Positions 37,636 to 42,631 of a stretch of DNA of 64,000 nt are shown in pieces (the first letter of the stretch is position 1; the number at the start of each line of letters is the position of its first letter). Both the position numbers and the translations under genes were made by a program. The notes beneath the pieces are model-generated. The model saw only the letters and a list, made by a program, of their open reading frames with translations, was not told the DNA's origin and did no database searches. The stretch is from an uncultured Candidatus Pelagibacter sp. (GTDB lineage: Bacteria > Pseudomonadota > Alphaproteobacteria > Pelagibacterales > Pelagibacteraceae): contig CAJQSZ010000008.1 in the NCBI GenBank assembly GCA_905618805.1, positions 1 to 64,000 on the forward strand, in the 5' to 3' direction.

Positions 37636-38921
37636 TGATTAAGATATTAGACAGTAAAATTAAAAATTTTGATGTAGCTTTAGATAAATTGCTGTCTAAA
37701 CGAAAAAATAAAGTTCAGTTTAACTCAGTTTCAGTTATTAAAATTATTAAAGATGTTAAAAAAAATGGTGATAAGGCTGTTTTAAAATATGAGAAAAGGT
37801 TTAATAAAAATAGTATCATTATTCCAAATCCTAAGAAAATAACTAAAACCATAAAATCTCTAGACTTAAAGATTAAAAAGGCAATTGATCTTGCTTATAA
37901 TCGAATTTATAAATTTCACTCTTTGCAGAAATTTAATGATATCTCTTACACAGATAAACTACAAAATAAATTAGAATATAAATATATTCCAATTTCATCG
38001 GTTGCAATTTATGTGCCAGGCTCAACAGCTTCATACCCATCAAGTGTTTTAATGAATGCAATTCCAGCCCTTGTTGCGGGTGTTAAAAGATTGGTGATGA
38101 TTAATCCAGGTCAAAAAGGTAATCAAAATCCAGCAGTATTGTATGCTGCAAGAAAATGTAAAGTTAAAGAGATCTATTCAATAGGTGGGCCTTCAGCGAT
38201 TGCAGCAGTTGCATATGGTACTAAAAAAATTAAAAAAGTAGATAAAATTGTTGGCCCTGGAAATTCTTATGTAGCAGCAGCTAAAAAAGAAGTTTTTGGT
38301 GACGTTGGAATTGAAGGGATGATTGCTGGACCCTCCGAGGTGACAATTGTCTGTGATAAGTTTTCAAATCCAGAATGGATTGCAAGTGATCTTATAGGAC
38401 AAGCAGAACACGATAATCTTGCTCAATGTATTTTAATTTCAAAAGATAAATTAATTATAAAAAAAGTTAATAAAGAAATTAAAAAACAATTGAAAGATTT
38501 ACCAAGAAAAATAATTGCAAAAAATAGTTTAATCAATAATGGAATCTTAATTTATATGCAGTCTGATCAAAAAATTATTGATACTGTAAATAAAATTGCA
38601 CCAGAGCATCTGGAACTTAATATTAAAAACTATAAAAAAATAGTTGGAAAAATTAAAAATGCAGGGTCTATTTGTCTAGGCAAATATGCCGTTATGGCTA
38701 TGACAGATTATAATGTTGGTTCTAATCACGTATTACCAACTAATTCGTCAGCAAGATATTCAAGTGGTATTAGTGTTAATGAATTTTACAAAAGAATTTC
38801 ATATATAAACCTATCAAAAAAAGGGATTGTAACGCTTGGCCCATCAGTTATAACACTTGCAAACTACGAGAGTTTAGTGGGACACGCTAGATCAGTAGAA
38901 AAAAGAATTAGGAGTAAATAA
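37635..38921 (+). CDS. hisD: histidinol dehydrogenase
   Basis: [47 protein letters not shown]. Confidence 0.97.
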
Positions 38922-38923
38922 AT

Positions 38924-39139
38924 TTGTCAAAACAAGAAATGCTGTCGTTCTCAGGAATTGTTGAGGATCTACTTCCAAACGCAATGTTCAGAGTTAAATT
39001 AGAAAATGGCCATATTGTTACAGCGCATGCTGCTGGCAAATTACGTAAGAATAGAATTAGAGTACTCCAAGGTGATAAGGTTCAAGTAGAAATGACGCCT
39101 TACGATTTGACCAAAGGTCGTATCACTTTTAGAGGTTAG
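38924..39139 (+). CDS. infA: translation initiation factor IF-1 (TTG start)
   Basis: [54 protein letters not shown]. Confidence 0.96.
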
Positions 39140-39144
39140 TATGG

Positions 39145-39220
39145 GGCCCTGTAGCTCAGTTGGTAGAGCATCGGATTGAAAATCCGTGTGTCACTGGTTC
39201 GAGTCCAGTTGGGGCCACCA
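39145..39220 (+). tRNA. tRNA-Phe (GAA), CCA encoded
   Basis: GGCCCTG...CGGAT-TGAAAAT-CCG...GGTTCGAGTCC...TGGGGCCACCA. Confidence 0.96.
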
Positions 39221-39269
39221 CCATCACCCTAAAAAATTTTTTAAATTATTATTGAATATTATTTAGAAT

Positions 39270-39362
39270 TGTTTAAAAGACTGCCAATGATTATGAATAT
39301 TACATACAGAGAGACTTCAAGAAGTACTCACAGAGTTTGCTTACATAGCCTGTAGGCTATTT
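39270..39362 (+). ncRNA. candidate structured small RNA between tRNA-Phe and tRNA-His
   Basis: locally less AT-rich non-coding segment with two hairpins (39311-39329 and 39345-39360); strand inferred from flanking genes. Confidence 0.3.
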
Positions 39363-39368
39363 ATTTAT
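39345..39368 (+). terminator. terminator-like hairpin ATAGCC-TGTA-GGCTAT followed by TTATTTAT
   Basis: perfect 6-bp arms 39345-39350 / 39355-39360 followed by a T-rich tract. Confidence 0.5.
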
Positions 39369-39412
39369 AATATAATTTTAATCCACACAAAAATAATATA
39401 AAAACAAGGAAT

Positions 39413-39487
39413 GCCTGCGTAGTATAACGGTTAGTACGATAGTTTGTGGAACTATAGGATTTGGTTCGATTCCAAGCGCGGGTACCA
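39413..39487 (+). tRNA. tRNA-His (GTG), CCA encoded
   Basis: GCCTGCG...ATAGT-TTGTGGA-ACTAT...TTTGGTTCGATTCCAAG-CGCGGGT-A-CCA; anticodon GTG; genomic -1 base is T. Confidence 0.93.
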
Positions 39488-39493
39488 AAAAAA

Positions 39494-40891
39494 ATGAATA
39501 AAGAAAATAAATTAATTCCTGGGTTACCCTCAGGGTTTGAAGATAGATGGAATAAGAAATTAATTCTCAAGAAAAAGTTAATTAATATTATTGAGAATAA
39601 TTTTGTAAAGTTTGGCTTTGAACCACTTGAAACTCCATCATTTGAAATTAGTGAAAATATAGGATCATTTCTTGCAGATGATGACAGCAATCTAATGTCA
39701 GATGTATTCTCATTTAAGGATGGTGAAAAAAGTATTACTCTTCGATATGATTTATCAAGTCCATTAGCTAGATTTGTTGCACAAAATAATCAAGAATTAC
39801 CTTTACCTTATAAACGATATGCAATTCAAAACGTATTTAGAAATGAAAAAGCAGGTAATGCTAGGTATCGTGAGTTCACTCAAGCAGATTGTGATATTGT
39901 AGGTAATGTTAACCCAGCACAAGCAAACGCAGAACTATGTAATTTAATTGCAAGCACACTCCTTTCTTGTGGATTAAAAAAAGATCAGTTTGTAATTAAC
40001 ATTAGTAATAGAAAAATTGTTCAAGGGTTAATTAAAGATCTTAAAATATCTGATGATAAAAAATTAAAAGTTATGAGAGCTATTGATAAGCTAGATAAAC
40101 CTGGTTTTGGATTAAGAGGAGTTGAAGATTTATTAAAAAAAGAAAGAGTAGATGTTAGTGGGGCAGTTACTAAAGGTGCTAACTTAACTGATGATGAAGC
40201 TTCACAAATTATTAATTTTTTAAAAGTAAAAAATTTAAAAGAATTAAAAGACAATTTAAAAAATCCACTATCTCAAGAAGGAATTAAAGAGTTAGAGAAT
40301 TTATTAGAAGTTGCAAGTTATGGTGACTATCTAGGTCAGATAAAGACTAATTTTACCATTGTTAGAGGCCTTGCTTATTATGATGGGTTTTGTGTTGAAA
40401 CAAACTTGAACTTCAAAGCAACAAACAACAAAGGAAAAGAGGTTGATATTGGAAGTATCTGTTCAGGTGGACAATATAACAAATTAATCTCAAGATTTAA
40501 GGGAGTTGATATACCAGGAACTGGAATGAGCATTGGAGTTGATCGATTATTATTTGCAATGTTACAATTAGATCAAATAAAAGTAGACGAGAAAAAACCA
40601 GTAATTATCTGCGTAATGGATGAAAAATATTTAAAAGATTATTATGAGATTTTAAAAGTTTTACGAGATAACAATATTAATTCTGAAATATTTTTAGATA
40701 GTAAAAAAAATCTTGGAAAACAATTAACCTATGCTAATAAAAAACAGTGTCCTATTGCAGTGATTTGTGGTGAGAATGAATTTAAAGATAATACGATTAC
40801 TCTAAAAAATCTTTTAGGGGTTAAGGGTGAAAACAACCAAGTTACATTTCCAAAAGAGAACTTAATTGATGAAATCAAAAAATTTATCTGA
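39494..40891 (+). CDS. hisS: histidyl-tRNA synthetase
   Basis: class II HisRS motifs (LRYDLSSPLARF, YKRYAIQNVFRNEKAGNARYREFTQADCDIVG, RGLAYYDGF); ATG 39494 preferred to the upstream ORF start inside the tRNA. Confidence 0.95.
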   Translation: MNKENKLIPGLPSGFEDRWNKKLILKKKLINIIENNFVKFGFEPLETPSFEISENIGSFLADDDSNLMSDVFSFKDGEKSITLRYDLSSPLARFVAQNNQELPLPYKRYAIQNVFRNEKAGNARYREFTQADCDIVGNVNPAQANAELCNLIASTLLSCGLKKDQFVINISNRKIVQGLIKDLKISDDKKLKVMRAIDKLDKPGFGLRGVEDLLKKERVDVSGAVTKGANLTDDEASQIINFLKVKNLKELKDNLKNPLSQEGIKELENLLEVASYGDYLGQIKTNFTIVRGLAYYDGFCVETNLNFKATNNKGKEVDIGSICSGGQYNKLISRFKGVDIPGTGMSIGVDRLLFAMLQLDQIKVDEKKPVIICVMDEKYLKDYYEILKVLRDNNINSEIFLDSKKNLGKQLTYANKKQCPIAVICGENEFKDNTITLKNLLGVKGENNQVTFPKENLIDEIKKFI

Positions 40892-41921
40892 AAAAATTCT
40901 TAGATCAGTAAAATCTAAAGGGTTTAAGTACATTGATTTACCTTCGGTAATTGAGGCTAATCATATTATGCAAAGGTCAGGAGAAAGTTTCAAGAAGTAT
41001 ATCTTCTCATTTATTGATCAAAATGGCAGTGAACTATGTCTTAGACCCGATCTAACTATTGCATCGTGCTTAAGGTACTTAGAGAACAAACTAAAGGGTA
41101 AAGAGAAGATATTTTATAGTGGTCAGGCATACAGAAAATCAAATAACAAAAAAGATTCTATTGTTAGAAATCAAGTTGGTTTTGAAATAATTGGCTCTAA
41201 AGATGAAAAAATTGATGACAAAGAAATTATTAATACTGCTTTAAAATCTTTATCAAATTTAAACTATTCAAAAGGAACTTTGAAGATTGGGAATGTGGAA
41301 ATTTTCAATTTACTAATTTCAAAGTTGGATATTCCAAAACGATGGAAACTTAGACTTTCAAGACACTTTTGGAGAGAAGATTATTTTAATGATTTATTAA
41401 AAAGATTAGAGACTAATTCTGATGTTGATCCAACAATCGTTGAAGTGGATAAAAAAAGATATTTAAAAATGTTAAAAGATAATCAGCAAACAATAGTTGC
41501 AGGCCGATCGATTGAAGAGATTTTAAAGAGATTTAATAATAAAATTAAAGATCCAAGAAGAGCAAGTAGAGGTAAAAATGATTCAAAAATTATTAAAGAG
41601 TTTTTGAAAATTAATTGTCCAATAAATCAAGCAGCCGATAAATTAAATACCTTTTTTAAAAGAAATAAGATTAACCTAGCTGTGGATCAAAAATATTTTC
41701 CAACTACATTAAACAAAATTCAAAAATTAAATGTAGAGTTTTCAGCCTCTTTTGGACGTCAGCTAGAATATTATACGGGCATGGTGTTTAAAATTGATAT
41801 CAAGTCTAAATCCAAAAATATTAATATAATTAATGGTGGACGATATGACAAATTAATTTCAGATCTTGGATCAAAAAAACAAGTTCCAGCAGTAGGAGCC
41901 GCTTTAAATTTAAATTCATAA
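40869..41921 (+). CDS. hisZ: ATP phosphoribosyltransferase regulatory subunit (HisRS paralogue)
   Basis: HisRS-like catalytic fold (LCLRPDLTIASCLRYL) between hisS and hisG. Confidence 0.85.
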   Translation: MKSKNLSEKILRSVKSKGFKYIDLPSVIEANHIMQRSGESFKKYIFSFIDQNGSELCLRPDLTIASCLRYLENKLKGKEKIFYSGQAYRKSNNKKDSIVRNQVGFEIIGSKDEKIDDKEIINTALKSLSNLNYSKGTLKIGNVEIFNLLISKLDIPKRWKLRLSRHFWREDYFNDLLKRLETNSDVDPTIVEVDKKRYLKMLKDNQQTIVAGRSIEEILKRFNNKIKDPRRASRGKNDSKIIKEFLKINCPINQAADKLNTFFKRNKINLAVDQKYFPTTLNKIQKLNVEFSASFGRQLEYYTGMVFKIDIKSKSKNINIINGGRYDKLISDLGSKKQVPAVGAALNLNS

Positions 41922-42631
41922 TGATAAAAAATATAATTAATATTGGAATTCCAAGCAAAGGTAGACTTAGAAAGGACATATTAAAAATCTTTAAAAAAAA
42001 TAAATTAAATTTAGTATCTGAAAGAGGAGAAAGAGATTTATTAGGATCCATTAAAAACTTATCTAATGTTAAAATACTTTATTTACATGCAAGAGAGATA
42101 GTTGAGAGACTTGGAGATGGATCTCTAGATCTTGGTTTTTCTGGTTATGATTTATTAAAAGAGAGTGAAATTAATATTCAAAATAAAATTAATGTAGTTA
42201 AGAAGTATGGATTGGGCAAAGCAACTTTAGTTGTGGCCATTCCAGATCCTTGGATTGATGTTCAAACAGTTGCAGACCTTGAGGAAATTGCTTTTGAATT
42301 TAAGGATAAAAAGAAGAAAAGATTAAGAGTTGCAACAAAATATCCAAATTTAACAAGAGAGTTTTTATTTTCTAAGGGTGTAACTCAATTTAAATTAGTT
42401 AGTAGCCTTGGTGCAACGGAGGCATATCCCTATACTGGTTCATCTGAGATTATAACAGATATTACCTCATCTGGTGAAACTTTAAGAGCTAATAATCTTC
42501 GAATACTTAAAGATGGTGAAATATTAAAATCAGAAGCCTGTATGATGGCTTCAAAATCTTCTCTAAAAGATAGTCTGGTTAAAAAATTAGTTAAATTACT
42601 TTCTAAGAATCAAGTCTTTAAAATAAACTAA
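41921..42631 (+). CDS. hisG: ATP phosphoribosyltransferase (short form)
   Basis: GIPSKGRL, DLGFSGYDLL, RVATKYPNLTREF; ~236 aa, consistent with HisZ-dependent short form. Confidence 0.94.
   Translation: MIKNIINIGIPSKGRLRKDILKIFKKNKLNLVSERGERDLLGSIKNLSNVKILYLHAREIVERLGDGSLDLGFSGYDLLKESEINIQNKINVVKKYGLGKATLVVAIPDPWIDVQTVADLEEIAFEFKDKKKKRLRVATKYPNLTREFLFSKGVTQFKLVSSLGATEAYPYTGSSEIITDITSSGETLRANNLRILKDGEILKSEACMMASKSSLKDSLVKKLVKLLSKNQVFKIN

Follow-up and report, generated by a model that had tools for sequence, protein, structure and literature searches.

A family-wide tRNA-His/hisS adjacency in Pelagibacteraceae as a probable tRNA-mRNA dicistron

The window analyzed here is a 64,000-nt stretch of DNA, and the loci that match it best belong to Candidatus Pelagibacter and Pelagibacteraceae (SAR11). 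It contains a tRNA-His gene followed almost immediately by the gene of the cognate synthetase. The features of the locus are as follows:

39145–39220, + strand: tRNA-Phe (GAA), the upstream neighbour of tRNA-His (ARAGORN; Rfam RF00005, 67.8 bits)
39345–39360, + strand: terminator-like hairpin ATAGCC-TGTA-GGCTAT, followed by a T-rich stretch
39397–39402, + strand: putative -10-like box TATAAA, beginning 16 nt 5' of tRNA-His
39413–39487, + strand: tRNA-His (GUG), with encoded CCA, A73, G1-U72 and U at position -1 (ARAGORN)
39488–39493, + strand: AAAAAA spacer between tRNA-His and hisS
39494–40891, + strand: hisS, histidyl-tRNA synthetase (HisRS), 465 aa, of the alphaproteobacterial (RRCH) type (TIGR00442)
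40869–41921, + strand: hisZ, ATP phosphoribosyltransferase regulatory subunit (NF008953, 433 bits)
41921–42631, + strand: hisG, ATP phosphoribosyltransferase (TIGR00070, 182 bits)

The tRNA-His gene is confirmed by Rfam (RF00005, 59.1 bits at 39413–39484). The sequence and ARAGORN place its encoded CCA at 39485–39487 and the hisS ATG at 39494–39496, with AAAAAA between them, exactly as a preliminary description of this DNA had it. The identities of hisS, hisZ and hisG were all confirmed with NCBIfam profiles, hisS scoring 347 bits against TIGR00442 (cut-off 287), and the hisZ ATG at 40869 lies within a 23-nt overlap with the end of hisS. The longest hisS reading frame extends upstream as far as a TTG within tRNA-His (39461). 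This TTG is not the hisS start, because the spacer varies between 4 and 7 nt among relatives and the frame across tRNA-His is not kept. The preliminary description had also considered a true start further downstream, which would undermine the close spacing; no in-frame ATG, GTG or TTG occurs downstream of 39494 before the conserved LPSGFEDRW motif is reached. Upstream of tRNA-His, the region 39221–39412 holds no cold-shock-type gene. In many relatives (L012, L016, L029), such a gene, identified by eye, lies between tRNA-Phe and tRNA-His.

To place the locus among its relatives, 110 hisS loci were gathered, some of them present in both collections, encoding ∼100 distinct HisRS proteins; 105 loci come from the window's family. 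The spacing suggested earlier as worth checking in relatives proves to be highly conserved: in 104 of these 105 Pelagibacteraceae loci, tRNA-His ends 4–7 nt 5' of the hisS ATG (4 nt in 74, 5 nt in 17, 6 nt in 10 and 7 nt in 3 loci). The spacer is pure A in 90 of the 104 and mostly reads AAAA. The sole exception, L026, has a 31-nt spacer. A hairpin-like AAGGC...GCCTT is seen there between tRNA-His and hisS. Loci of other genera of the family, read singly, also have hisS directly 3' of tRNA-His, at 4–5 nt. A pattern scan of the genomes of the order gave a match in 234 of 248, an upper indication only, as the pattern is loose and admits chance hits. In the sister family, tRNA-His is located ∼1.4 kb upstream of hisS. 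Outside the family, no tRNA-His with an ATG within 20 nt adjoins a HisRS gene among 289 class-wide genomes scanned for canonical T loops and ATG starts. Among the papers searched, none deals with a tRNA-His/hisS transcript.

The tRNA-His gene itself is hypervariable, as seen at 39413–39487 of the window and in loci L009–L118. A comparison of two complete genomes shows no difference in 18 of 28 isoacceptors, whereas tRNA-His shares 64.6% identity. Pairs of loci with 92–97% identical hisS have tRNA-His bodies that are only 48–60% identical, with similar promoter and spacer. The distribution of tRNA-His types conflicts with the HisRS tree, where supported branches of a quick tree force at least 7 changes. 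It looks as if tRNA-His had been swapped as a short cassette. We rejected the idea that tRNA-His serves as an attachment site for phages, or that the swapped types are phage-derived, since exact 3' halves of four types were absent from 2.9 million viral contigs; for one swapped type, no similar phage record was found. All 104 tRNAs share the anticodon, G1-U72 and A73, in line with expectation for a HisRS of the RRCH type (PMC3937112).

Two alternative combinations occur at positions 18 and 55: U55 is always accompanied by G18 (67 of 104 loci) and G55 by A18 (37 of 104), in several lineages. Examples of A18:G55 are found in L014, L077, L047, L018, L062, L173 and G267 (G267:C1:205065-205135), and the same coupling is present in genus g5. 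The T loop AGCGTAA, in addition, changes 54:58 from U:A to A:U. Because of the altered T loop, ARAGORN does not detect tRNA-His genes of this type, although no other tRNA-His gene was found in the near-complete genome G267; annotation can thus overlook the sole tRNA-His of a large Pelagibacter clade. Similar features were read from the sequences of other tRNAs. The tRNA-Phe at this locus (39145–39220 in the window, and in relatives) is very variable and often A18/G55, and tRNA-Val(GAC) in G267 and G012 has the same AGCGTAA T loop with A18/G55. In L027, the tRNA-His upstream of hisS has an unusual T loop, ATCGTGG, and its discriminator base is followed by TGCCA in place of CCA.

The 6-nt gap, taken alone, is ordinary in this genome. 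The window is 94% coding with 29% GC, and the median gap between same-strand neighbours is 1 nt (12 nt or less in 34 of 49). On the comparison of loci above, it is the family-wide conservation of this tRNA-gene pair and its spacing, rather than the size of the gap, that takes the adjacency beyond chance. The same layout recurs elsewhere. Three complete genomes of the family were surveyed for ORFs of 75 codons or more that begin no further than 12 nt 3' of a tRNA gene; 7–10 of ∼30 tRNA genes per genome have one, a count that leaves out the altered tRNA-His of G267, missed by ARAGORN; in the sister family the figure is 3 of 27. Repeated pairs, with their gaps in the three genomes, are tRNA-Gln and the CCA-adding enzyme gene cca (3, 3 and 6 nt), tRNA-Leu(CAA) and an AMP-binding, acyl-CoA-ligase-like enzyme (4, 6 and 1 nt), tRNA-Leu(UAG) and the trigger factor gene tig (10, 9 and 12 nt), tRNA-Pro and an NDUFS4-like gene (6, 5 and 12 nt), and tRNA-His and hisS (4, 4 and 5 nt), whose spacer is among the least variable. 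In two of the genomes tRNA-Glu is succeeded by a GIY-YIG gene; in the third, an ORF resembling it lies 3' of tRNA-Arg. Further tRNAs that end 1–12 nt 5' of an ATG are tRNA-Leu with nadK and tRNA-Gly with a pterin dehydratase gene (all these pairs other than tRNA-His/hisS come from loci L200, L203, L204, L187, L207, L202, L214 and G158). Because a tRNA, 1–12 nt and an ATG also follow one another in non-cognate pairs, the layout is not specific to histidine. It probably represents a compaction-driven tRNA-mRNA dicistron, a family-wide variant of tRNA-mRNA co-transcription with a general mechanism.

Signals for transcription are found upstream of tRNA-His. Two terminator-like sites were detected, compared with 0.2 expected in shuffled sequences, and an alignment reveals a hairpin of changing sequence at the equivalent place in relatives. 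A [TG]ATAA[ATC]A box lies 16–24 nt 5' of tRNA-His in 52 of 56 distinct upstream sequences (shuffles: mean 14.7, maximum 25), with the caveat that TATAAA-like motifs are common in AT-rich sequence. The TATAAA at 39397–39402 would set the start of transcription within a few bases of tRNA-His; a sigma-70 scan did not call this box as a promoter. The elements expected of a tRNA-mRNA dicistron, a promoter-like box upstream and a spacer (6 nt) free of terminator and promoter, are thus recognizable in the sequence alone. Hexamers resembling a -10 box inside the tRNA are present in only 11 of 104 loci, in the window's own clade, and a hisS promoter within tRNA-His was rejected on this ground. Because a hairpin and a -10-like box are located upstream and no conserved promoter is located inside the tRNA, tRNA-His, hisS, hisZ and hisG are very likely transcribed as one unit. 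The earlier proposal that tRNA-His would act as the 5' leader of hisS is therefore very likely to hold, in view of the upstream signals, the lack of room in the spacer and the conservation throughout the family.

The preliminary description had further argued for a nearly leaderless message from the lack of a Shine-Dalgarno sequence outside the tRNA. The observation is correct and the argument is weak: a 4-mer Shine-Dalgarno core is present at only 9 of the 58 genes in the window, so that initiation without it is normal in the window and its absence at hisS is neutral. An AAGG or AGGG in the acceptor stem was discarded as a conserved element, as it occurs in some clades only. With the tRNA attached, opening the region from -15 to +15 around the hisS AUG is predicted to cost 8.2 kcal/mol (median of window genes, 5.7), compared with 0.06 kcal/mol after a cut behind the CCA. 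The uncut value is not extreme, being equalled or exceeded in 11 of 58 window genes, and therefore translation without processing is possible. Opening -6 to +15 in the uncut RNA costs 0.12 kcal/mol; the spacer and first codons are unstructured. As for the enzymes that might process the transcript, RNase E/G scores above cut-off in 9 of 9 genomes. The best matches to the RNase Z profile TIGR02651 reach 33–66 bits (cut-off 293) in 7 of the 9 and there are none in 2, which may reflect a divergent enzyme. An Rfam scan of 38900–39800 (E up to 0.1) for a T-box or other known leader RNA returned only tRNAs and weak unrelated matches.

From the layout, its conservation, the promoter-like motif and the missing Shine-Dalgarno sequence, we infer co-transcription, cleavage and leaderless translation of hisS. 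The explanation that we favour, with a probability of about 0.55, is that extreme compaction produced a tRNA-mRNA dicistron, kept throughout Pelagibacteraceae, from which excision of the tRNA leaves a near-leaderless hisS mRNA. Transcription would start a few bases 5' of tRNA-His and read through hisS, hisZ and hisG, with tRNA-His folding at the front of this RNA. RNase P would trim the tRNA on its 5' side, and a cut in or beside the A-rich spacer, most likely by RNase E together with exonucleases, would free the tRNA. The remaining hisS-hisZ-hisG mRNA would begin with an A-rich leader of 0–7 nt before the AUG and be translated without a Shine-Dalgarno sequence. A cut by RNase E behind the AUG could inactivate the message. 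The same process would apply generally to SAR11 genes 3' of tRNAs, instead of being a histidine-specific device.

Alternatively, the transcript might be translated unprocessed, tRNA-His being a structured 5' UTR and each transcript giving either a tRNA or a message; ribosomes would bind the A-rich spacer and start region or melt the acceptor stem. We regard this as unlikely. The open spacer and first codons of the uncut RNA and a -15 to +15 cost within the range of window genes are compatible with it, and in several clades AAGG or AGGG stands in the 3' strand of the acceptor at a plausible Shine-Dalgarno distance. However, these bases are missing in other clades (CCCCGTGT, CCAGCTGT), the ∼20 nt that a ribosome covers upstream of the start would collide with the acceptor and T arms, and excision of tRNA-His is needed anyway, because no second tRNA-His gene turned up in two complete genomes. 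Even less probable is that hisS is transcribed from a start of its own, within the tRNA gene or immediately 3' of it; the primary transcript would then have a short leader or none and would not depend on processing of the tRNA. Short-leader primary transcripts are common in some bacteria (PMC3848588, PMC4681348), and in the window's clade the D arm contains a TATAAC, but the rarity of internal hexamers noted above and the repeated replacement of the tRNA body without loss of the layout argue against it.

The preliminary description had suggested that the arrangement links tRNA-His maturation to HisRS synthesis. One form of such a link is a feedback in which free HisRS binds the uncut tRNA-His part and slows processing or hides the hisS start, so that HisRS tracks the supply of tRNA-His. 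The cognate pairing is maintained across the family despite repeated change of the tRNA body, the anticodon, A73 and G1-U72 are retained, and hisZ and hisG lie downstream on the same strand. Each of these would suit a feedback, but the conserved tRNA features are required for charging anyway, and sequence beyond a normal tRNA gives no sign of an operator. The layout is also shared by non-cognate pairs (Gln-cca, Leu-tig, Pro-NDUFS4 and Leu-nadK, as well as the acyl-CoA-ligase-like and GIY-YIG genes), which leaves the suggested link unsupported. Nothing in the sequence demands a HisRS-specific loop; it is possible but unsupported, and we give it little weight.

The favoured dicistron can be compared with several known systems. 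In alphaproteobacteria, the RRCH-type tRNA-His/HisRS pair is characterized by A73, no conserved templated G-1 and a glycine in the motif 2 loop (PMC3937112). A73 is present in 104 of 104 tRNA-His, and base -1 varies (T in 52, G in 29, A in 19 and C in 4; T in the window). In the motif 2 loop of HisRS, a glycine of the query (FRNEKAGNARYREF) aligns with a glutamine of 6nhi (WRADRPQKGRFREF), the residue of the bacterial-type enzyme. The locus thus encodes a pair of this type, and differs from the other sampled alphaproteobacteria in the adjacency of tRNA-His and hisS. In actinobacteria, the 5' ends of leaderless and short-leader mRNAs are transcription starts (PMC3848588, PMC4681348). The proposed hisS message would resemble these in an AUG less than 10 nt from the 5' end and in Shine-Dalgarno-independent initiation, whereas its end would arise from tRNA processing; the AUG start and the lack of upstream space are read from sequence only.

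The E. coli thrU-tyrU-glyT-thrT-tufB operon likewise places a gene for a translation-machinery protein directly 3' of a tRNA on the same strand. However, thrT and tufB are 114 nt apart in MG1655, leaving room for a leader, compared with 4–7 nt in SAR11, where tRNA and enzyme are also cognate. In the translational autoregulation of E. coli thrS, ThrRS acts on a tRNA-like operator, a tRNA mimic accompanied by its own Shine-Dalgarno sequence. There, too, the leader of a synthetase mRNA resembles the cognate tRNA; in SAR11, by contrast, the leader would be the real and only tRNA-His gene, and regulation is hypothetical.

A further likeness is to tRNA punctuation in mitochondria, which is experimentally established and genome-wide, with the 3' cut made by RNase Z (ELAC2). 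In both cases tRNAs abut coding sequences, and excision would yield nearly leaderless mRNAs. The SAR11 layout differs in that it involves about a quarter of the tRNA genes, has no clear RNase Z and relies on processing that we infer. A literature search on tRNA punctuation and leaderless messages in bacteria returned mainly mitochondrial papers. We tentatively suggest, at somewhat less than even odds, that SAR11, as free-living bacteria, use tRNA punctuation at about a quarter of their tRNA genes, 3' processing creating near-leaderless mRNA 5' ends. Maturation of the tRNAs would then determine how much HisRS, CCA-adding enzyme, trigger factor and other products are made. SAR11 are among the most abundant cell types of the ocean, and their genes mostly lack Shine-Dalgarno sequences. 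If the 5' ends of mRNAs are indeed set by the 3' ends of tRNAs, these bacteria would offer a natural test bed for Shine-Dalgarno-less initiation on processed messages, and the conserved ends would constitute a bacterial parallel to mitochondrial tRNA punctuation.
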